Shown here: positions 24,698 through 45,447 of the stretch, in pieces | Layout of the letters: each line of letters starts with the position of its first letter | Position numbering within the stretch: position 1 is the stretch's first letter | DNA from: Primulina eburnea | Lineage: Eukaryota; Streptophyta; Magnoliopsida; Lamiales; Gesneriaceae | Direction: 5' to 3' | Assembly: GCF_022965805.1 (NCBI RefSeq) | Contig: NC_133114.1 | Location: forward strand, 9,692,261 to 9,756,260 | DNA length: 64,000 nucleotides | Notes under the pieces: generated by a model | What the model was told of the DNA's origin: nothing | What the model saw: only the letters and a program-made list of their open reading frames with translations | The model's database searches: none | Position numbers and translations under genes: made by a program

Positions 24698-24921
24698 AGA
24701 GTGTCAAATTTGAATTTATATCAGTATTGTTACCAATTAGTCTAGATTTTAATTTAGACCTTTTGTTTTTTATTTTACTTTATATTGATTGAGTTTTTTT
24801 CATTTTTTCTGCTTGACAATGCATGCTAAGATCACAAAACTCTGACTCGCTTATATTTGATCCGGAGATTGAAAAAACTGCAAGAAGATTATGAAAAGAA
24901 AGAAGAGAACAGATACAAGCA

Positions 24922-27258
24922 ATGGCTGAACACAAAGAAAATGACAAACAAATCCCGCCAAAGGCTATTCCTTTCAGAGATCACTTCCGACCAGTGATCA
25001 ACAATCATTACTCTGGTATTGCAAGAGGGACCATCAACGCCAATAATTTCGAGTTGAAGCCTGCTCAAATCAATATGTTTCAGCAAAACCAGTTTGCTGG
25101 AACATCCACTTCTGATCCTCATGTTCATTTGAGGACCTTCTTGGAGATAACGGATACGCTAAAGATTAATAATGTTCCTGATGATATTATTAGACTGCGT
25201 TTGTTTCCGTTTTCTCTCAGGGATCAAGCAAGAGGATGGCTCCAATCGCTTCCCTTGGGAAGTATCACGACATGACAGGAGCTGGCGACGAAATTTCTGG
25301 CAAAGTACTTCCCCCCTGCAAAGTCTGCACAGTTGAGGATTGAGATTAGCACGTTCAGGCAGACTGATTTTGAGCAATTGTATGAGGCATGGGAAAGATA
25401 CAAGGAGCTGTTGAGGAAATGCCCGAACCATGGTTTTGAGGACTGGGTGCAAATTAAATTATTCTACAACGGTCTAAATGGGCAAACAAGAGGAACAGTG
25501 GATGCTGCAGCTGGTGGAATGATCTTTGCTAAATCTCCCGAGCAAGCTTATGACTTGCTTGAAAAGATGATGATAAATAGCTACCAGTGGCCATCTAAAA
25601 GGGCATGAGTAAAAAGGACAGCTGGATTTTATGCTGTAGATCCTATTATGTCACTCACTGCTCAGGTATCTGCATTGACCACTCAAATAGCAGCGATGAA
25701 TAAGGTGAGCACATCAGAGACTAAGAGTCCATCGACTGTTGCCGAAGAACAATCTATCCCTGAAGAAGCTCAGTACATCAACAACAGAAATTTTGGAGGA
25801 TTCAAAGGATATCGAGGTAACCCTCCCCCTAATACTTATCATCCAGGATTAAGAAATCGTCAAAATTTTTCTTATGAAAATAATAAAAATGTGTTGAATG
25901 CTCCACCGGGGTTCAATACATTAAAGGGGGAATGAAAACCTTCATTTGAAGATTTAGTGGGCCTTTTTGTTGCCGAGTCTGGTAAGAGAATGGCAAGGAC
26001 TGAGTCTCTTCTTGAAAACATGGAGACTCACATGGGAAATATGAGTGCCACAATGAAATTTTTGGAGACGCAAATCGGGAAGTTGGCCAATGCCTTGAGG
26101 GATCAAAACAGGGGTCAATTTCCAAGTAACACGGAGGTTAACCCTAAAGAGCCGTGCAAGGCAGTCACTTTAAGGAGTGGAAAGGAATTGGAGGTACAAA
26201 GTTCCAAAGAGAGAATGGACAAGGAGAAGACAGTTGAAGAAGAGGAAACTGAGGGATCCAAAGCTGAAGTTGAAGTTGAACAACCTCCAGTATTTAAGCC
26301 AACTCTTCCATACCCTTAGAGGTTCAAAAAGAAGAATTTGGATGATCAGTTTGCAAAATTCTTAGAGATTTTTAAGAAGATACACATCAACATACCATTT
26401 GCTGATGCTTTAGAGCAAATGCCGAATTATGCAAAGTTTATTAAAGATCTGATGTCTAAAAAGAGGAAGCTGCAGGAGTTTGAGACGGTGAAACTGACTG
26501 AAGAATGTAGCGCCATTCTGCAAAAGAAGCTACCACAAAAATTAAAAGATCCAAGGAGCTTCATTATTCCTTGTTTTATTGGTGGTTCTAAATGTAGTAA
26601 AGCTTTATATGATTTAGGAGCAAATATTAATTTGATGCAATTGTCTATTTACAGGGAATTGGAGCTTGGAGAGGTTAAACCAACTACTATCACCTTACAA
26701 CTTGCAGACAGAAGTCTCACATATCCACATGGGATAGTCGAGGATGTACTGGTAAAAGTAGATAAATTTATTTTTCTTACTGATTTTGTGATTTTATATA
26801 TGGAGGAAGATCATGATGCTCCACTAATCTTTGGGAGACTGTTCCTGGCGACTAGAAGGGCATTGATAGATTTGCATAAGGGTGAACTCACCTTAAGAGT
26901 TGGTGCAGAAGAAGTCATTTTTAATATCTATCAAGCCATGAGGGGATCAAATGAGGTAAGTACTTGTAAAAGCATCGATGTTATAGACTCATGTATATCT
27001 CTTGATTGTGTAGGAACTAGACATCCTCTGGAGAGCTGTTTGACAAGTTCTACAGGAAATGTTGATGAAGATGATTGGGAAGTGAAAGAGCAACTGGCGG
27101 CTCTTGATGGATCACAGAAATATAGAAAAACGGATGCACCGCTTGAGGAATTGGAGGTACATGAGCAAACAAAGGTAATACTTCCTTCCCCTGATTTGAA
27201 GGAGCTGCCAAGTCACCTTTGCTATGAATTTTTAGGTGAAAGTCGACATATCCAGTAA
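24922..27258 (+). pseudogene. Athila-like gag-protease of element B, broken
   Basis: Near-continuous gag reading from ATG 24922 (MAEHKENDKQIPPK) with stops at about 25273, 25606, 25933 and 26318, all in or close to one frame. Gag landmarks include FFLEI-like and LRLFPFSLRDQARGWLQSL; a TLRSGKEL segment precedes the protease. The protease part (about 26570-26900) reads ALYDLGANINLM, with DLG where most retropepsins have DTG or DSG, a variant I associate with Athila protease. Two stops fit decay of a Trp or Gln codon by C-to-T change. Upstream is the tRNA-Asp primer site; RT follows from 27300. Confidence 0.85.
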
Positions 27259-33600: not shown

Positions 33601-35548
33601 ATCACTTGTTTTACCCGATTTTGCTAACACCTTTGAAATTGAATGTGATGCTTCAGGTGTAGGTATTGGTGGCGTGTTAATGCAAGGAGGAAGGCCGCCG
33701 GTGGCGTACTTTAGTGAGAAGCTCAATGGGGCAGCGCTGAACTATCCCACGTATGACAAGGAGTTCTATGCACTTGTGAGGACTCTTGAGACGTGGCAGC
33801 AATACTTGAGGCCTAAAGAGTTTGTGATTCATACGGATCATGAGTCTCTAAAGCACCTCAAGGGGCAACAAAAGCTGAACAAGCGGCATGCTAAGTTGGT
33901 GGCTTTCATAGAGACATTCCCCTACATGATCAAGTATAAGCAAGGTAAGGAAAACGTAGTGGCTGACGCACTATCACGGAGGTATGTGTTTTTCTCTACT
34001 TTGGAATCTAAAATCTTGGGGTTTGAGCTTGTTAAAGAATTGTATGTGCTAGATGATGATTTTAAAGAAGTGTTTGAAACTTGTATGCATGGTCCACATG
34101 ATAAATTCTACTTGCATAAGGGTTTCTTTTTTAGAGAGGATAGATTGTGCATTCCTAAGTCATCAATTCGTGAACTACTTGTTAGGGAAGCACATGGGGG
34201 TGGTCTAATGGGACATTTTGGTGTGGCAAAAACTTTGAATGCTTTGCATGAAAATTTTTATTGGCCACACATGAAGCGTGATGTTGAGCGTATTTGTGAG
34301 AAGTGCATAACTTGTAGACAAGCTAAGTCTAGGACACTACCACATGGATTATATACACCACTTTCCGTCCCTAGTGAACCTTGGGTTGATATCTCTATGG
34401 ACTTTGTTTTGGGGTTGCCTAGGAAAAAGAAGGGGAGGGACTCTATATTTGTTGTTGTGGATAGATTTTCTAAGATGGCACACTTTATAGCTTGTCACAA
34501 AACTGATGATGCATCTAACATTGCGGATTTGTTCTTTAGAGAAGTCGTTAGGTTGCATGGCATGCCTAGGGCTATTGTTTCTGACCGTGATGTTAAATTC
34601 TTAAGTTACTTTTGGAAAACACTGTGGGCTACACTTGGCACTAAATTAATGTTCTCTACGACCTGTCATCCTCAAACTGATGGTCAAACTGAGGTAGTTA
34701 ATAGGACGCTAGGAACTTTATTACGTGCTATCCTTAAAAAGAACTTAAAGAATTGGGAAAATTGCTTGCCATTTGTTGAGTTTGCATATAATCGTTGCGT
34801 GCATTCTACTACTAAATATTCGCCATTTGAAATTGTGTATGGTTTTAATCCTTTAACTCCGTTAGATTTGATGTCTTTACCTGTGAGTGAAAGGTTAAAC
34901 ATGGATGGCAAAAAGAAGGCTGAATTTGTTAGGAGTTTGCATGAGAAGGCCAAAGCCAATGTTGAAAAGAGAAACGAACAATATGCTAAGCAAGCCAACA
35001 AGGGGAAGAAGAAGAAGGTGATATTTGAGAAAGGTGATTGGGTGTGGCTACACTTGAGGAAGGAGAGGTTTTCGGAGAAGCGACGCTCAAAGCTATTACC
35101 TAGAGGCGATGGGCCATTCCAAGTTCTTGAGACGATCAATGACAACGCCTACAAACTCGATCTGCCAGGTGAGTACAACGTAAGTTCTACATTTAATGTT
35201 AGTGATTTGTCGTTGTTTGATGTAGGTGATGAGCTAGATTTGAGGACAAATCCTCTTCAAGAAGGGGAGGATGATGCGAACATGGACGGCCAAGCGATAA
35301 GGACAGCATGGGATCCGTTGCAGTTGTCGGAAGGACCAGTCACGAGGGGTCGACTAAAGAAGTTCAAGGAGGCACTACAGAGAGTAATGAGCAGGCATGA
35401 AGGGGTCGTGATGCATAGGAGTATGTTGGAAGGCCAAAGGAATATGATTCAAGCATTAATTTCATCAGCCGAGTCTTCACGGACCTTGACACGGACCTGC
35501 ACACGAGGTCCGTGCCCTATACAGCCTGAGATGCCCTTTGACAGTTAA
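30686..35548 (+). CDS. Gag-pol polyprotein of element D (uninterrupted)
   Basis: 1620 codons from ATG 30686 with no stop. Residues about 110-290 are a retrotransposon gag domain; the zinc knuckle [14 protein letters not shown] is near 341; protease IIDGGSYTN near 430 has DGG for the usual DTG/DSG; a Lys/Glu-rich linker covers about 545-615. RT has [11 protein letters not shown] near 838; RNase H follows ([10 protein letters not shown]). The integrase zinc domain is near 1170-1215 and the core acidic residues lie near 1238 (SMDFV), 1299 (SDRDVKF) and 1335 (QTDGQTE). The frame passes the purine tract (35258-35274) and enters the 3' LTR; its present stop is TAA at 35546-35548, the first bases of inserted unit G. 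The RT wording and the LTR overlap fit the CRM lineage; I do not see a clear CR motif. Confidence 0.85.
35258..35274 (+). other. Polypurine tract of element D, inside the coding frame
   Basis: AAGAAGGGGAGGATGA immediately before the 3' LTR, translated as part of QEGEDD. Confidence 0.85.
35275..35545 (+). repeat. 3' LTR of element D, left part
   Basis: Matches 29147-29417 with about seven substitutions by eye. Broken by unit G after ACAGT (35541-35545). Confidence 0.9.
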
Positions 35549-35568
35549 TTTGTACACATAAAATTCAC

Positions 35569-38256
35569 TTGGAAGAAAATGCTAAAACGTATCAACAACC
35601 GCAAAGAAGGTTAAATCCACATATGAAAGAAGTTGTTAAGAATGAAGTATTAAAACTATTAGACGCTGGAATTATCTATCCAATCTCAGATAGTAAATGG
35701 GTAAGTCCAACACAAGTAGTACCTAAAAAGTCAGGCATCACTTTTATAAAAAATGAAAAAGGAGAGTTATTACAAACTAGGATTCCATCTAGTTGGCGTA
35801 TGTGTATTGATTATAGAAAATTAAATGATGCAACTAGAAAAGATCATTTCCCACTACCATTTTTAGATCAAATTTTAGAAAAAGTAGCAGGAAATTCTTA
35901 TTACTGTTTTCTTGATGGGTATTCGGGGTATTATCAAATACCTATATCATTAGAAGATCAAGAAAAAACTACTTTTACTTGTCCTTTCGGAACTTTTGCA
36001 TTTAAAAGAATGCCATTTGGTTTATGCAATGCTCCGGCTACTTTTCAAAGATGCATGTTAAGTATTTTCAGTGATATGATTGAAGAATATGTAGAAGTTT
36101 TTATGGATGATATAACTGTTTTTGGAAACTCATTTGAAAATTGTCTTAAAAATCTAGAAAAAGTATTAAAAAGATGTGAAGAAAAAAATCTTGTTTTAAA
36201 TTGGGAAAAATGTCATTATATGGTTAAATCTGGGATTGTCTTAGGACATGTGATATCTGAAAAAGGAATTGAAGTTGATAAAGCCAAAGTTGATGTTATT
36301 TCTAATTTAACATCACCAAAAACGGTCAAAGAAGTTCGATCATTCTTGGGTCATGCAGGATTTTATAGAAGGTTTATAAAAAATTTCAGCATAATATCTA
36401 AACCAATTTCAAATCTTTTAACAAAAGATACACAATTCGAATGGACTCAAAAATGTGAAAATTCTTTTAAAAAAATAATTAATCTTTTAATTACATCACC
36501 TATTTTACAACCTCCAGATTGGTCTTTACCATTTGAATTAATGTGTGATGCAAGTGATTATGCTATAGGAGCTGTGTTAGGACAAAGAAAAGAAGGAAAA
36601 CCTTATGCAATCTATTATGCTAGTAGAACCTTAAATAGTGCCCAAATAAATTATTCAACTACTGAAAAAGAATTACTTTCAGTAGTATTTGCATTAGATA
36701 AGTTTCGATCTTATTTAATTGGTTCTACTACTATTGTTTACACCGATCATTCTGCCATAAAATATTTATCAAATAAACAAGATGCTAAGCCAAGATTAAT
36801 ACGGTGGATTTTATTGTTACAAGAATTTGATATTATAATTAAAGATAAAAAAGGAAAAGAAAATGTTGTAGCCGATCATTTATCTAGAATAATGACTGAA
36901 TCATCTCATAATGAAATACCAATAAATGAAAATTTTCCAGATGATCAGTTGTTTTATGCTACTATTATGCCATGGTTTGCTAATATTGTAAATTTTCTTG
37001 TGACAAATAAAATGCCTTCTCATTGGAATTCACAGGATAAGAATAAATTCTTGATAGAAGTTAAAAAATTTTATTGGGATGATCCTTACTTATTTAAGTA
37101 TTGTCCTGACCAAATTTTTCGACGATGCATACCCGACAATGAAATAAGTAATGTTATTAAATTTTGTCATTCTGAAGCATGTGGAGGTCATTTTTCATCC
37201 AATAAAACAGCTACAAAAATCTTACAATGTGGATTTTATTGGCCTTCTTTATTCAAAGATACGCATTTATTTTGCAAATCTTGTGAAAATTGTCAGAAGA
37301 TGGGATCAATTTCAAAACGAAACATGATGCCTTTAAATCCAATCATAATTATTGAAATATTTGATAGTTGGGGGATAGATTTTATGGGTCCATTTCCATT
37401 ATCTTTTGGATATAAGTACATTTTAGTCGCTGTTGATTATGTTTCAAAATGGATTGAAGCGATTGCATGTAGAACTAATGATCATAAAGTTGTTATAAAA
37501 TTTTTAAAAGAAAATATTTTTAGTCGATTTGGAATACCTAGAGCAATAATTAGTGATGGGGGAAGTCATTTTATAAATAAATCATTTTCTTCTTTGTTAA
37601 GAAAATATGGCATTACACATAAAGTTTCTACCCCATATCATCCTCAAAGTAATGGTCAAGTTGAACTAGCAAATAGAGAAATAAAACAAATTTTAGAAAA
37701 AACAGTTAATCCAAATCGAAAAGATTGGTCTTTAAGATTAACTGATGCATTATGGGCATATAGAACTGCATTTAAAACATCATTAGGGATGTCACCATAT
37801 AGGTTAGTTTTTGGTAAGCATTGTCATTTACCGGTTGAACTAGAACATAAAGCTTATTGGGCAATTAAAGCATTTAATACTAATTTAGATGATGCATCTA
37901 AATTAAGAAAATTGCAAATAAATGAACTTGAAGAATTAAGAAATGATGCATATGAAAATTCAAAGATTTATAAAGATAAAACTAAAGCCTTTCATGATAA
38001 AAATATTATGAGAAAGTCATTTGAAATTGGACAAAAAGTTTTGCTTTATAATTCTCGTTTGCATTTATTTCCAGGTAAACTAAGATCGAGGTGGTCAGGA
38101 CCATTTATAGTCAAATTTGTTTATCCTCATGGTGCTGTTGATATTGAAAATCCTAAAAATAATGACGTGTTTAAAGTTAATGGGCAAAGACTTAAGCCTT
38201 TTATAGAAAATGAAATTCTTAATGATGAGTTTATGCCTTTATATGATCCACAATAG
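35569..38256 (+). CDS. Athila/Tat-like RT-RNase H-integrase of unit G, 5' truncated
   Basis: Uninterrupted frame of 895 codons; the coding sense already starts at the insertion edge (35546), so the first TTG/ATG is not the true start. Gag and protease are absent. Landmarks: [30 protein letters not shown] active site VFMDDITVF (about 36097), RNase [15 protein letters not shown] (about 36544), integrase zinc domain (about 37165-37300), core acidic residues in [10 protein letters not shown] (about 37378), IISDGGSHF (about 37555) and QVELANREI (about 37660), and a tail ending VNGQRLKPF. Very AT-rich codon use compared with B and D. All visible catalytic motifs are present, but the protein lacks its own gag and protease. 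Confidence 0.9.
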
Positions 38257-38387
38257 CTGTTTGATATTTTCATTTTGTTTTGCAGATTCTAGTTCATTTC
38301 CCGGTTAAGTGGCGGATAACGGTACTCCGTGACTGTTTAAGTCGGTTTCTTCAGTTTTCCCAAAATAATTGAAATATATATAATAAT

Positions 38388-38918
38388 ATGGATGTGTGTA
38401 TTATGAATCTTCGTAAATATTTTGCTTGTTTACCTGATAATGCGTTGAAAAAAATTTATAAAGCTAGATGTGAGCGGCTAAGGTTGATGATGTTATATGG
38501 CATACCGGATGATATCCGTTTGATAATTGAAGCAAAAGTCCGATTGGTTGGGGAAGCAAGTGAATTAATAATAAGACATATGCCAGGATTTGGTAAAAGC
38601 ACATATGCCAAAAAGCGAAGAGCTAAACGTATAGGTGGATGTCATAAATGTGCAAGGTGGACTTGTAAAGGAAATTGCAAAAATGTTGGAATGACATCAA
38701 TGAATAGAGAAGATAAAATTTTATTCATTAAGAATGGTCTGAGTAAAGATCCTTTGGATAATTTTCTAGAGGTTCTTGATACGCATTCTAGTGGGTACGT
38801 GCAAAATGAACTTCTTAAACTATGGTGGCAATTTCAACAGGAGGAATATCAATATGGACGGTGGAATCAGCCTTACAAAGATCCTACTGTAGTAACGCAT
38901 ATCTATTTAGATAAGTAA
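38388..38918 (+). CDS. Carlavirus-type nucleic-acid-binding-like ORF with C4 zinc finger
   Basis: 176 codons from ATG 38388 (alternative ATG 38403), 131 bp after pol. Residues 38-55 contain GIPDDIRLII, residues 69-81 GKSTYAKKRRAKR, then a four-cysteine finger C85-x2-C88-x4-C93-x3-C97 within GGCHKCARWTCKGNCKN. The arrangement (a GIP..-type hydrophobic segment, a GxSxYAxxRRA basic block, a CHxC finger) is that of the cysteine-rich nucleic-acid-binding proteins of carlaviruses and relatives, which bind RNA/DNA and act in silencing suppression or host gene control. Here the finger is shorter than theirs and the protein longer, with an aromatic C-terminal part (LWWQFQQEEYQYGRW). Same strand as pol, so it could be read from the same RNA. 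Homology rests on motif recognition only. Confidence 0.6.
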   Translation: MDVCIMNLRKYFACLPDNALKKIYKARCERLRLMMLYGIPDDIRLIIEAKVRLVGEASELIIRHMPGFGKSTYAKKRRAKRIGGCHKCARWTCKGNCKNVGMTSMNREDKILFIKNGLSKDPLDNFLEVLDTHSSGYVQNELLKLWWQFQQEEYQYGRWNQPYKDPTVVTHIYLDK

Positions 38919-39097
38919 AAATATACACAATTTCGTCTTGGGAATCTGACGTTAAAAGACCCTGTTTGCCAATTTATAAGAAAATTGGATGGGAAGCATA
39001 TCCTCGACTCATAGAAGGCGTTGAAGCCGTTACTGAATGTAAAATCAGAGGAAGATGTGAGCCACAATCACAACTACGCTGTATATATTTGTTTTAA
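38915..39097 (+). pseudogene. Possible frame-shifted C-terminal extension of the zinc-finger ORF
   Basis: One frame back from the ORF above, 60 codons are open to a stop at 39095-39097. They read protein-like, with SWESDVKRPCLPIYKKIGWE near the start and a Cys pair further on. The switch point is an A-run (GTAAAAATA, 38915-38923). It could be a former C-terminus lost by a one-base indel, or chance. Not matched to any family. Confidence 0.3.
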
Positions 39098-39219
39098 TTT
39101 TGTCATTTTTATTTTCTTTTAATAATAATAATTTCCTGTTCAAATATTGACTTTTGGCATGTTACGTTTATAAATTCATATGCTGTGATCTAACAATTAC
39201 AGAAAACATATTTCTCAAC

Positions 39220-39718
39220 ATGTCAACGTCCACGGTAAGTAAAATCAAAAATATTTGTGTATTTTGTGGATCTAGTGCAGGAAAAGATTCAATTTATATA
39301 GATGTAGCAGAAAAGCTTGGAATAACACTTGCTAAAAGAAAGATTCATTTGGTATATGGTGGTGGTGAAGTTGGCCTCATGGGAAAAGTTGCAAAAGCTG
39401 CGCATGCAGGTGGAAGTGAAGTCTTAGGCATTATTCCGATTACTTTAGCCAATCTTACAGGACCAACAATAGGAGAAGAAATGCAAGTGGACAACATGTA
39501 TGAACGAATTACTCAAATGATTGAACATTCAGATGCTTTCATTGCTCTGCCAGGAGGTTTCGGGATTTATTTCATTAGCTTCGCGAAGGATGTTAGTTTC
39601 TGCTACAAGTGAAGGTGAACTTATTGATTTACTGCAAGGATTTAGTCATGAACCAGATCCATTCTTATCTCAACTTAATTGGCCAACATCCAAGAGTAAG
39701 AAAAGAAAATTCATGTGA
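39220..39718 (+). pseudogene. LOG-like: LOG-like cytokinin phosphoribohydrolase, intronless, internally deleted
   Basis: From ATG 39220: ICVFCGSSAGK, YGGGEVGLMG, GGSEVLGIIP and DAFIALPGGFG are the ordered motifs of plant LOG enzymes, which release active cytokinin bases from their riboside monophosphates in the cytosol. Directly after LPGGFG (39564) the frame jumps: the C-terminal part (GFISLASRRMLVSATSEGEL, 39563-39715) is one frame away. About 45-50 residues between them are gone, including the GTxxE part of the catalytic PGGxGTxxE motif, so it cannot be an active LOG. The junction shares GGA. Plant LOG genes have several introns; none is present here, so this looks like a captured spliced mRNA. 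An in-frame TTG upstream (39154) is unlikely to be the start. Confidence 0.8.
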
Positions 39719-40440
39719 TGCTAAACTTGCGATTCAACGGTATGTTTTTAATGTTTTTTTTTAAGGTATGAATAATTTCTTCTTCTTCTTCTTCTTCTTC
39801 TCTTCTTAGTTTTTTTTATTATATAAAAAATAAAAATATGTAGTAATAATAATAATACTTTTTAGTTCAATGTCGAGTAAGGTGTCAGTAAAATGCACCT
39901 GAGACACATTAGTTAATAATTATCGGAAAATCGCAATACACTAGATTTTAATATTCATTATATTCAAATTACAGACTACAAGAAAAATTAGTTTTCATAT
40001 GTACCAATTTATATACATATATATTTTGATCAATTAATATAAAATATATAATAGATGTGTTTATTTATTTACATATATGTATATAATTGTGTGTGTTTTC
40101 AAATAAAATAATTTCTAAAATTTTTATGAGAATATAGTTAAAAGATATGGTTTGTATGGTTGTTAACATGTATAATTGAAAGAATTCTTTTGTAAAAGTA
40201 TAATATATACTCACACATCTTTTGTGAGTGAGTGGTGAGAAATGAGAAAATAATTAATAAACTTTTATTGATTATTAAAAAATGGTTTATTACAAGAATA
40301 TAAATCCCCTAAAAAAAAAATATTTATTGAAAAAAAAAAAGAGAAGTAAATAAATAACGGACTGCAAAATACTTTATTCAGTGTACATTTTTTTTTTAGA
40401 ACATTGATTTATGTTTTTAGAACACATTGATAGTACATCA
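39719..40440. other. AT-rich stretch between LOG-like ORF and inverted primer site
   Basis: Non-coding, with a (CTT)n tract at about 39778-39806 and A- or T-runs. The head-to-head junction between the plus-strand part and the minus-strand LTR-leader part of unit G must lie here, but I cannot place it exactly. Confidence 0.4.
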
Positions 40441-40459
40441 ATCCCCGGCAACGGCGCCA
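40441..40459 (-). other. Primer-binding site of unit G LTR
   Basis: On the minus strand TGGCGCCGTTGCCGGGGAT, the complete tRNA-Asp-type site of Athila/Tat elements, six bases after the LTR end. Confidence 0.9.
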
Positions 40460-40465
40460 AAACCT

Positions 40466-42137
40466 TGTTACTACTTAAATAATAATTCACCCAAGTGTAG
40501 GTTGTCTGCAAGTAATATATTTCGTAAGTACGAGATCGATCCACAGAGAGGTTATTTTGAGTTTAAATTTATTAATTTATAGATTACCAAATGCAAGACT
40601 GAAGTTTACAAATTATAAATATTGTCAAGGCTTGAGGATTTATTCTTGGTTTATGTAATATTGTTTAACTAAAAGTGAAACAAAAGAAACTACCATAAAT
40701 AATGGTTCCAAGAAAATTAAACACACACATAATCTAATATAGTTCCCACTATAGAAAATACCGAATTAACCGATATTTTATATATGGTACCTATGATTAT
40801 AATTATAACTATATAAATAAATAATTGCATAAATTAAATGTTAAATTAAATCATTATATTTCATTTAGAACAACCGGCAGAGCCACGCTATTGCCTAAAT
40901 GAAATATATTGATTTAATAAGTTAGTTGCGGTAAAGTAAAAGTTAGTTGCAATAAAGTAAATGTTAGTTGCGGAAAAGTAAAAGTTAGTTGCAAGAAAGT
41001 AAATGTTAGATGCGAAAAATAAAGTTAGTTGCGAAAAAGTAAATGTTAGATTGTTAGATGTTAGTATTAAGTCATAATATTTCATTTAGAACAACCGGCA
41101 GAGCCACGCTATCGCCTAAATGAAATATTATGATATTATTATATAAATATACATATATATATATCTATATATATATAATAATAAGTGATGAAATATTTAT
41201 TGTATCAAAATTAAACAACAAATCAAGATAACCACTTTAATGGTATCAAGCATTTGATGTAAATTGATAACAACAAATAATTCATTTTTATACCTACAAT
41301 AAAAATAAGTTAGCTAAATGAAAAGAGATAAAGAAATAATATACAAAATATAAACAATCTTACTTCACCAAGAATGCATCCTCTTCACCTTGACATAATA
41401 GATTTAGCTTGCCATGAACTTACTTTTGATCAACACTAAAATATCACTCATAGTTGAGAAAATGAAAGAAAATATATTTAAACTTAGAACTTTGATACAC
41501 ACTCACACTATATTTTACAATGAGATAGAATGATTCTCAAGCTAGCACAAGGCCTCTATTTATAGGCCAAATGAGAGAAAGAGTCAAAAATTCTATTAAT
41601 GCCATGTAGTTGTAATAGTATTCTTTGTCTCCTCAACTCCAATTCCATGTCCCTTCTTTCAATGCCTTGTTCCACGACTTTTCTCACCACTTTGACTCTG
41701 ATTAAGGCCACAAACATGTGGGGAATTTTGTGTAGATGAGTTTGGCCACTTGATTCACCTCATTTGGATAAATATTGAAATAGTTATGAATTTTTTACTA
41801 AATGATGGTCATAGTAAAAGTAAATGTGTCCTCCTTTTGATCTTTGCACAATTTGATCATCTTAATGAGCTTTTTAGGCAATCATGTCTTCTGCAAAGTT
41901 GTAAATAACTTCTCAAGGATTCCAACCATGTTTGATTCACCTCCATTTGAATTTTCTAGCTTGAGTTATCATTATTTTACCAACACGTAAAAAAACCTGA
42001 AAATAAAACAAATTTAGTAAGACATTTAAATATAAACAAACAATACTAAAATAACATAATTTATAATTTTAATGAAACTTAAAATTTTAAAATACAGGTT
42101 TTAACATATAATAAATTATTAATTTTAAGTTTCATCA
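40466..42137 (-). repeat. LTR of unit G (minus strand)
   Basis: 1672 bp, TGATGAAACTT... at 42137 to ...GTAACA at 40466. Minus-strand TATA box CTATAAATAG at about 41556-41565 with CT/AG-rich leader after it. Contains a tandem-repeat block flanked by hairpins (40850-41132). Unrelated in sequence to B's LTR. Confidence 0.8.
40850..41132. repeat. Tandem 20-bp repeats flanked by two copies of a hairpin
   Basis: About seven units near GTTAGTTGCGAAAAAGTAAA (40918-41056). On each side lies a near-identical block of about 58 bp (40850-40908; 41073-41132) with arms TATTTCATTTAG and CTAAATGAAATA around a GC-rich loop that includes GGCAGAGCCACGCTAT. Confidence 0.75.
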
Positions 42138-42142
42138 ACAGT

Positions 42143-42790
42143 GTCTACACGGACCCGACGACGGACCCAGGCACGGAGTCCGTACCCTATTACATTGGCG
42201 AAGACAGTGTCTACACGGACCCGTACACGGAGGTGATCACGGGGTCTGTGTCCCTTGTTTCCAGCTGAAGCTTATTCCCGAGTGTACACGGACCCGAACA
42301 CGGAGGGCTACACGGGGTCCGTGTCCTAGAGTTTTGGGCGAGAAAAATTACCTTCTTTAGAGTTTTATTTTGTTAGGAAACTAGATTTAGTAATCTTTTT
42401 GATATGTAAACCATATTGGACGAATTTTTACACACAATACACATATTATTTTGAGTTTTATCAAACTTGTGAGATTTGTCTCTCAACTTTTCAAGGCTTT
42501 AGCTTTGTTAAATAAACTCAAACTTATCAAAGTTTATAACTTTGTGGCGTTTGTCGATCGTGCTTGTGCAGATTTTCGTAGGCGTCGTTGTTCGAAGGTT
42601 CGTATCAAATTTCGATTGTTATCCTCGTGTTTATTTGTTGCTAAACTTTTATAGTTTAGAGGTGAATAACACATCAATTACTTGATTCAAAAGATCGGGC
42701 AAACACACGAGTCTTATTATCGTAATTAAATAGAGGGTGCGATTGTGTTTTAATCGTGTTTGCTATTTATTCGTATCGAGATTCACATCA
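42143..42790 (+). repeat. 3' LTR of element D, right part
   Basis: Continues the D LTR after the second ACAGT; matches 29419-30066. Ends ACATCA at 42790, followed by the resumed integrase of B. Confidence 0.9.
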
Positions 42791-43731
42791 CCAGGCGTCA
42801 CGAGTTACCACTGAAAAATGTCTTGGAACTGGAACTTTTTGACGTTTGGGGCATTGATTTCATGAGACCCTTTCCCCCTTCTTTTGGTAATTCTTATATT
42901 TTATTAGCTGTGGATTATGTTTTGAAATGGGTGGAAGCAATCGCCACCAATACTAATGACGCTCGTGTTGTAACTAAATTCGTGAATAAGAACATCTTCA
43001 CCATGTTTGTAACACCGAGAGCCATCATAAGTGACGAAGGTACGCACTTTTGCAATAGGATTTTCAACTCACTTTTGGATAAAGACAGTGTGAAGCACAA
43101 AGTGACACTAGCATATCATCTTCAGTCGAATGGACAAGCTGAAATATCCAACCGGGAAATTAAGCAAAATTTGGAAAAGACTGTCAACACCAACCGGAGG
43201 GATTGGGCCATTAAGTTGGATGATGCGTTATGGGCTTTTCGGACTGCATTAAAGACGCGTATTGGGATGTCTCCCTATAGGCTAGTATTTGGGAAAGCAT
43301 GCCATTTGTCGTTGAAGTTGGAGCATAGAGCATTTTGGGCTGTGAAGAAATTAAACTTTGACTTGCAAGCTTCGGGAGATGTTAGAAAACTGCAGTTAAG
43401 TGAGATGGATGAATTCCGACATGATGCTTATGAAAATGCCAAGATCTACAAAGAGCAGACTAAGAAGTGACATGACAAAATAATTGTCCGAAGGGTGCTC
43501 AAACCAGGACAACAAGTACTATTATTCAACTCTTGTCTGAAGTTATTTCCTGGTAAGCTGAAGTCGCGTTGGTCAAGGTCATTTGTTGTGGAAACAGTGT
43601 ATCCTTATGGGGCTATCGAGCTCAAGTGCAGTGATGGGAGAACCTTCAAGGTGAATGGACAGCGGGTTAAGCCTTACTATGGGACTGAATTAAGGAATAT
43701 CCACAGTGTCAAGTTGAGCGAACCAAACTGA
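42791..43731 (+). pseudogene. Athila-like integrase of element B, C-terminal part
   Basis: Resumes the frame broken at 29146: [25 protein letters not shown] and [13 protein letters not shown] are the integrase core with its three acidic residues (about 42850, 43030, 43141). It continues to VNGQRVKPY, with a stop near 43468 (CAC/TGA region) before the last 78 codons (43495-43731). Interrupted by D and point lesions, hence inactive. Confidence 0.85.
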
Positions 43732-44465: not shown

Positions 44466-45447
44466 ATGCCGCCTACAAAGAGATCGAAAGATGTGGCTTC
44501 CTCTACTTGTTCCTACGATGCTAACAGACTTTGGAATGAGGAAGCCTTCAGAGTTTATGAGAGCACCCTGTATAGGTCAATTATAAAGAACGATGGTTAG
44601 ATCTGACTTACCCTGACTATGCAATAATAGAAGAGGTTGAGCAAAGGGGGTGGGTATATATAGCACAGCACCGCCAGATGCAGTTATATCTGTAGTCCGG
44701 GAATTTTATCCTAATCTGAGAATCAAACACGAGGACTACGGAGTTTTGATACGAGGGCAACTGGTCTATTTCTATTCGGCAACCATTAATGCTATCTATA
44801 ATCTGTCGAGTTTTGAAAATGACGAGTGTACTGCTTTGATTACTGGCATTGTGGATTACAATGAGATTATCAGAAACTTATGCATCGAGGGTGCAGAGTG
44901 GCGCTTGAATCAAGGCTCCCCAGTCACTCTGAAGAAATCTGACTTACGCCGTGACCCACGCAGTTGGGCATCTTTCATTCTATCACGAATCATGCCCTCA
45001 TCACATCAAACAGAAATTACAAAGGATAAAGTGGCGTTGATTTACGCCATAATGACTGGGAAGACCGTGGATCTTGGGAAGCTCATTAACAGTTTTATCA
45101 CACGTGCTGGTACGGGATTCATGACCGTCAGCCTCCCTTTTCCACATATTATCACTACACTATGTCTTCATGCCGGTGTGCAATGGGGCTCGGATGAACA
45201 AGTTTTGAAAGCCAAGGCCCCAATCACGGTATATGAAGCATACCGCTTGCGAGGAAGACGACAAGTAGAACGAGAAGAGGCTAGGGAAGATTACAACCAA
45301 AGGTCCAGAGAACGCCAACAGCCGCCACCACCATCGATCCTTCGAGCCAGTTTTCGAGACAGGATGTTCCGAATGGAACATGATACGCGGGCTCAGTGCC
45401 AAGAGTTGGCCGAACACCGACACACTACCAATACTTTCATGTCTTAG
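44466..45447 (+). pseudogene. Athila-type 3' ORF (envelope-position, plant transposon protein family), broken
   Basis: ATG 44466 gives MPPTKRSKDVASSTCS, ending at a stop at 44598. After a frameshift the main part (44650-45447, 265 codons) reads EFYPNLRIK, VLIRGQLVYFY, CIEGAEWRL, RPRSWASF-like, HQTEITKDKVALIYAI and GFMTVSLPFPHIITTLC. I recognise this as the protein found downstream of pol in Athila/Tat elements and in many plant 'putative transposon protein' entries. No signal peptide or membrane span is visible. The C-terminal part is Arg/Glu/Gln-rich and probably coiled. Function is unknown in the family. Confidence 0.7.

Follow-up and report, generated by a model that had tools for sequence, protein, structure and literature searches.

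A viral-type zinc-finger gene as a putative accessory gene of an Athila-type LTR retrotransposon family in Primulina eburnea

In a 64,000-nucleotide window of the Primulina eburnea genome (contig NC_133114.1, positions 9,692,261 to 9,756,260), we analysed an open reading frame (ORF) of 176 codons that encodes a nucleic-acid-binding protein (NABP) of the type known from flexiviruses. Judged from its sequence, this gene belongs as an accessory gene to a young long terminal repeat (LTR) retrotransposon family of high copy number, in which it occupies the envelope/accessory position; we take the family, from features that we associate with that lineage, to be Athila-type. We are highly confident of the identity and the conservation of NABP. 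The explanation that we favour, and to which we would give somewhat more than an even chance, is that the gene is homologous to flexivirus NABPs and that its product most probably shields the element against RNA silencing by the host. What appears to be new is the occurrence of NABP in retroelements; a second gene of the family, LOG, is already known from such elements.

The NABP ORF (38388-38918, plus strand) is intact and follows an integrase frame, as the original prediction, made from the letters of the window, had described, and the motifs quoted there (GIPDDIRLII, GKSTYAKKRRAKR and CHKC) are all present in it. It begins 131 nt past the stop codon of an open frame for reverse transcriptase (RT), RNase H and integrase (INT). 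Profile comparison, named at the time as a check, bears out the proposed viral-type protein: the 176-aa window protein, P0001, passes the curated Pfam cut-offs of both Carla_C4 (30.5 bits, cut-off 20.9, E 3.5e-7) and Viral_NABP (26.4 bits, cut-off 23, E 8.1e-6), the latter alignment spanning residues 39-127. P0008, the NABP of a second subfamily, reaches 34.1 bits for Viral_NABP and 20.4 bits, just under the cut-off, for Carla_C4, and when family members were scanned at E<=0.01, Viral_NABP was matched by 110 and Carla_C4 by 109 of 119. Both the basic block (residues 69-81) and the four-cysteine (C4) finger (residues 85-97) are conserved, and the finger spacing C-X2-C-X4-C-X3-C is exact in 108 of 121 proteins. 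The usual length in the family is 181-182 aa; in subfamily 1, the last ~20 residues are unlike the usual C-terminus. One shuffled control gave no Pfam match. An ORF arising by chance is ruled out by the profile matches, the homologues and the frame control of the selection test described below. An unrelated cellular zinc finger was rejected as well, other Pfam families being rare at E<=0.01 (SHQ1 in 6, P2_N in 2 and C6_DPF in 1 of 119 members) and a sequence search of the PDB returning nothing up to E 10. The ORF is thus neither single and unconserved nor a match to a cellular finger family, two of the outcomes that the original prediction had itself named as telling against it.

By their sequence, the basic block and the compact C4 finger are homologous to flexivirus NABPs, also known as cysteine-rich proteins (CRPs). 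The alternative that the likeness is convergent, with a basic stretch and a group of cysteines fitting the Pfam models by coincidence, we consider highly unlikely, given that two curated cut-offs are passed, that the Viral_NABP alignment extends well over the central part of the protein and that nearly all scanned members match. Moreover, the central 72 aa score 33.9 bits compared to 12.8 bits for the basic block alone, which rules out a match produced by that block on its own, with the caveat that masking its 13 residues leaves no Pfam family in either of the two proteins tried. Similarity beyond the basic block, the absence of which the original prediction had named as telling against it, is upheld by the bit scores and not by the masked sequences. 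Several other results also weigh against the explanation that we favour. With the finger masked, just sub-threshold Pfam matches remain, and none at all is obtained with the N-terminal 68 aa. The cysteines of the finger are spaced otherwise than in the C-X2-C-X9-C-X4-C given for PVH in the part of the source available (PMC3689765). No relative emerged when viral contigs were scanned with P0001 and with A1, and structure comparison of NABP was not significant (best E 0.17 in BFVD and 9.5 in the PDB). The masking result, the differing finger and the unmatched N-terminal part are also what a convergent origin would lead one to expect. Because masking removes the match and the block alone scores low, we read the similarity as residing in basic block and finger jointly. 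Regarding the protein models, a first one was poor (pLDDT 64.2) and a second moderate (pLDDT 72.7, pTM 0.34); the latter predicts N-terminal helices that have no counterpart in Pfam, the viral NABP profiles included. Of the three best BFVD matches to the family model, two are named RNA silencing suppressor, though none of the three is significant.

The element family is abundant in the host genome. The P0001 search scored 150 places of 1251 candidates, all of which matched; separated by identity, at least 91 places at >=74% identity, fragments and stop-bearing copies included, make up subfamily 1, and a further 59 at 61-63% identity belong to subfamily 2. Searching with P0008 (150 of 1374 candidates scored) revealed at least 150 places of subfamily 2 at 71-73% identity, 145 of the 150 being free of internal stops. 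Of the 30 loci fetched per subfamily, 27 of subfamily 1 and 29 of subfamily 2 have an open NABP of the usual length (176 and 181 aa, respectively), fractions that are optimistic, and to that extent count against our interpretation, because the best matches were taken as loci and only open copies entered the within-subfamily tests. The features of the element were examined in separate pieces, with LTRs and gag taken from copy L004 and the order of pol from the window copy. In L004, the LTRs measure 1674 and 1678 bp and have TG...CA ends; this copy also has a primer-binding site that is presumably of the tRNA-Asp type, a CTCAC target duplication on both sides and a gag frame (Retrotrans_gag, E 2.8e-21). 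These features, from the LTRs, the short target duplication and the primer site to gag and the RT-RNase H-INT order, are those of a Ty3/gypsy element, and together with the Pfam matches they agree with the earlier proposal that an LTR retrotransposon carries a viral-NABP-type ORF at its 3' (envelope) position. The two LTRs of L004 differ by 2 substitutions in 1674 aligned bases (99.64% identity with gaps counted). At substitution rates of 1.3e-8 or 7e-9 per site and year, L004 would have inserted about 0.05-0.09 million years ago.

Selection was assessed by the Nei-Gojobori ratio of nonsynonymous to synonymous divergence (dN/dS). Between subfamilies, the ratio is 0.128-0.148 for NABP and 0.188-0.197 for LOG (three pairs each), and 0.064 for integrase in the clean pair L011-L048, which was used instead of L035, whose value includes a frame-disrupted tail and was set aside. 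Compared to L001, a 3330-bp contig carrying integrase followed by NABP, the NABP values are 0.24 for the window copy and 0.21 for L035, and the integrase of the window copy gives 0.118. All of these ratios are rough, a further point against us, because dS amounts to 1.0-1.9 and is near saturation. In the same alignments, the other two frames yield 0.96-1.00 and 1.75-2.39 (for NABP, about 1.0 and 1.75-1.86). To judge by these ratios, purifying selection is acting on the NABP frame and not on the other two, and the expectation of many copies under purifying selection agrees with the copy numbers and with values well below 1. Within subfamilies 1 and 2, the corresponding ratio pN/pS, computed from open copies only, amounts to 0.39 and 0.22 for NABP and to 0.54 and 0.25 for LOG, such that both genes look to be kept by selection. 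That NABP is a functionless, decaying relic of one past capture is extremely improbable: the window copy is indeed truncated and rearranged and its LOG broken, but hundreds of copies, many of them open, homologues in many plants and in-frame dN/dS of 0.13-0.24 stand against this possibility, which the selection test contradicts. Since dS between subfamilies is of one order for LOG (about 1.25-1.28), NABP (1.7-1.9) and integrase (1.5), the data suggest that all three genes were present in the common ancestor of the two subfamilies.

LOG (LONELY GUY), which the earlier account had overlooked, was detected downstream of NABP in all 60 fetched loci. It is open over 209 aa in 25 of the 30 loci of subfamily 1 and over 212 aa in 26 of the 30 of subfamily 2, and all 51 open copies contain the motif PGG.GT..E. 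The LOG of L004 matches PDB entry 2a33 (At2g37210) at E 2e-63 and scores 126.8 bits for Lysine_decarbox and 179.2 bits for TIGR00730 (cut-off 96.35); against NF058542, the equivalog for cytokinin riboside 5'-monophosphate phosphoribohydrolase and a prokaryote-annotation model, it stays below the cut-off (121.2 bits vs 300). The predicted product is of the cytokinin-activating phosphoribohydrolase type; it would release active cytokinin and thereby favour dividing cells, and new insertions could be inherited more readily as a result. L004, L035 and the Citrus protein P0096 share a basic C-terminal LOG tail resembling a nuclear localisation signal (NLS), with a lysine-rich KLD or KFM end, which is absent from two aligned Arabidopsis LOGs as far as the alignments reach. 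Contig L001 carries NABP without LOG in the following 986 bp, and the two genes are therefore not obligatory partners. Splicing was considered but is not claimed for either gene: acceptor-like sites lie ahead of NABP in 27 of 30 and 30 of 30 copies, yet 491 of 1000 shuffles contain one as well, and ahead of LOG they are present in 0 of 28 and 26 of 27 copies.

Homologues of NABP occur in other plants. In a set of 5.8 billion proteins, 180 of 201 candidates match at E<=1, and all of the best 120 of these 180 contain PF01623. Among the matches listed, named homologues come from 11 eudicots, namely Orobanche gracilis, O. minor, O. hederae, Citrus x changshan-huyou, Gossypium barbadense, Populus x canadensis, Xanthoceras, Rhamnella, Acer, Parasponia and Striga. 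No viral protein was recognised in the best 120 of 180, 408 and 340 matches of three protein searches. Automatic database names already point to the viral family, reading 'Viral nucleic acid binding' in Parasponia and 'Carlavirus putative nucleic acid binding protein' in a JGI record. L001 is filed under a Candidatus Nomurabacteria bin, which we read as plant contamination, and the homologue P0266 in a Clostridioides difficile record is probably contamination too. The Citrus protein P0096 joins an NABP-like part to a LOG part, only the latter matching in a Pfam rescan at E<=0.01, and cotton P0119 has a LOG-like piece at its end. In a tree built from 18 sequences, subfamily 1 falls with Citrus and subfamily 2 with Orobanche (support 0.81 each), while Acer and Xanthoceras form one pair and Striga and O. 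hederae another (0.98 each), a pattern of old diversity with some host-like grouping.

The element gene resembles the NABPs of flexiviruses and carlaviruses (CRP; PF01623, PF05515) in having a central basic block followed by a four-cysteine finger, and in its 3'-most location behind the replication genes. It resides, however, in a reverse-transcribing, DNA-integrated LTR retrotransposon, whereas the viral gene lies at the 3' end of an RNA genome, and with usually 181-182 aa its product differs in size from the PVH protein of 10.87 kDa. NABP would be translated from element RNA, bind RNA or DNA via basic block and finger and, like its viral relatives, shield the element from host RNA silencing or act in the nucleus on host transcription. 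Because an LTR element meets the same silencing machinery as flexiviruses, counter-defence is the likeliest role, although we assign silencing suppression or counter-defence to NABP tentatively, putting it slightly short of an even chance. According to the available parts of two reports, mandarivirus CRPs with an NLS and a finger raise pathogenicity and one of them suppresses silencing (PMC12172455); CVB p12, to the disadvantage of a suppressor role, failed to suppress locally induced silencing (PMC3689765). Alternatively, NABP may be a nuclear regulator of host transcription that promotes cell proliferation together with LOG and is no silencing suppressor. This proposal, which we find quite unlikely, would be in line with the cytokinin-activating type of LOG in the same element and with the basic, NLS-like tail, but fits less well with L001, in which NABP is not followed by LOG.

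Two conserved nucleotide blocks flank NABP and bear on another possible role, namely that the protein serves the element itself as RNA chaperone, packaging factor or nuclear import/export factor, perhaps at these blocks, and has no anti-silencing role. Between pol and NABP lies an invariant, non-coding block of 25 nt, of which 56 of 61 NABP-bearing loci, among them L001, have an exact copy. The second block, behind the NABP stop codon in subfamily 1, retains 80-100% identity to L001 in five 30-nt bins (38930-39079), a conservation that is to be set against near-saturated synonymous sites; in other family members, this block codes for the NABP C-terminus and continues beyond the stop. Because it is conserved outside the ORF in subfamily 1, we read its conservation as acting at the nucleotide level. 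Readthrough of the stop codon, suggested by a frame that looked conserved by eye beyond it, was rejected, since the block is still conserved where subfamily 1 has it outside the ORF. The blocks may represent an RNA signal. A protein acting on its own RNA would make sense of these sequences and of a basic block plus finger suited to RNA binding. Neither block, however, has a stable fold (z -0.06 to -1.39) or an Rfam match, protein and blocks are linked by nearness alone, and the 3' ORF of an older Athila-type element within the window is another one (Transposase_32). We regard an own-RNA role as unlikely, though by no means far-fetched, and retain counter-defence as the favoured explanation. 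In viral contigs, two exact patterns of the flanking blocks were not found.

Extra ORFs in Athila-like and other plant Ty3/gypsy elements were reportedly described by Steinbauerova in 2011. With such elements, as treated in the available part of PMC7264820, the present family shares an additional gene between pol and 3' LTR, and it is set apart by a recognisable viral-NABP domain. A screen of 121 angiosperm genomes names several extra domains in elements, and in the portions of that report available NABP/Carla_C4 is not among them (PMC9289625). LOG/YgdH has already been published from Ty3/gypsy elements in Citrus and Populus (PMC9289625, citing Steinbauerova 2011, likewise from part of the text). 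A LOG-type gene in an LTR retrotransposon is common to these and to the host family, and the tail of Citrus P0096 is like that of the host copies; here, LOG is full-length and open in dozens of copies of two subfamilies, appears to be under purifying selection and always stands behind NABP in the 60 loci examined. Judging from excerpts of the respective papers, sunflower Tekay elements also carry an extra protein, a DRBM-like one suggested to modulate RNA silencing, but belong to another lineage and encode a protein type unrelated to NABP (PMC11728184). Orchid Ty3/gypsy elements with an AlkB RNA demethylase are alike in having acquired an RNA-acting gene, thought to counter host surveillance; AlkB is a cellular-type enzyme, found in two Phalaenopsis species and tested in vitro (PMC9289625, in part). 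A survey of RNA-virus sequences in plant genomes lists, in the section available, one betaflexivirus replicase-like sequence, in cucumber (PMC3136472). The string 'carla' did not occur in the searched passages of PMC7264820, PMC11963269 and PMC11728184, and no published NABP gene in retroelements was found in the open-licence PMC literature, most subscription papers and supplements lying outside this search.

Taken jointly, NABP, as silencing suppressor or nuclear regulator, and LOG might form a two-gene host-manipulation cassette, and retroelements may be the source of the flexivirus suppressor gene, a combined proposal that we offer as speculative and on balance doubtful. In such a cassette, NABP would shield element RNA, and LOG would enlarge the pool of dividing cells that pass new insertions to the next generation; NABP would have resided in elements for a time sufficient to diversify in both rosids and asterids. 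If NABP does suppress silencing, a plant transposable element would share with RNA viruses a class of counter-defence gene, tying together the fields of transposon control and viral suppressors. LOG beside NABP raises the question of whether mobile elements alter the hormone state of the host for better inheritance, and a tree could then answer in which direction genes passed between retroelements and flexiviruses.

The window copy itself, whose truncated and rearranged state had escaped the original prediction, is part of a nested arrangement (Table 1). An older Athila-type element was hit by a second Ty3/gypsy element, and the 3' LTR of this second element was hit by the insertion that carries NABP, at whose two edges ACAGT is duplicated (35541-35545 and 42138-42142). 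The copy begins inside RT, without gag, protease and 5' LTR; given this truncation, the inverted LTR at its end and the broken LOG, it is not a complete element. The inverted LTR, on the minus strand, is 99.5% identical to the 5' LTR plus primer site of L004 and 99.2% to the L004 3' LTR; the insertion looks like the product of aberrant reverse transcription. The older element has gag- and protease-like frames, recognised by eye, at 24895-27258, an integrase at 42754-43470, 62% identical over 226 aa to that of the window copy, and the Transposase_32 ORF at 44641-45447 in its 3' part, where the other family carries NABP.

Table 1. Features of the NABP-bearing insertion in the window (positions count from the first letter of the window)
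Feature	Position	Strand	Basis or remark
Nested insertion: 5'-truncated Athila-type element fragment plus inverted LTR	35546..42137	+	splits LTR of outer element; 5-bp duplication
pol frame (RT, RNase H, integrase)	35569..38256	+	Pfam RVT_1, RT_RNaseH, RT_RNaseH_2, Integrase_H2C2, rve
Invariant 25-nt non-coding block between pol and NABP	38310..38334	+	exact in 56/61 NABP-bearing loci, L001 included
NABP, viral-type nucleic-acid-binding zinc-finger protein	38388..38918	+	Carla_C4 and Viral_NABP above cut-off; dN/dS 0.13-0.24
Basic block GKSTYAKKRRAKR	38592..38630	+	conserved, precedes finger
C4 finger C-X2-C-X4-C-X3-C	38640..38678	+	exact spacing in 108/121 proteins
Second conserved block, behind NABP stop in subfamily 1	38937..39080	+	similarity to L001
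LOG remnant	39220..39718	+	Pfam Lysine_decarbox, LDcluster4; internal deletion with frameshift
Inverted primer-binding site	40442..40459	-	presumably tRNA-Asp 3' end type
Inverted LTR of the NABP-bearing family	40466..42137	-	identity to LTRs of L004

A short fold-back overlap lies near 40388-40443, at the inverted LTR end of the insertion. Inside the LTR, two hairpin-forming 74-nt repeats (40845-40918 and 41066-41139) are 91% alike and enclose a 21/42-bp tandem array.
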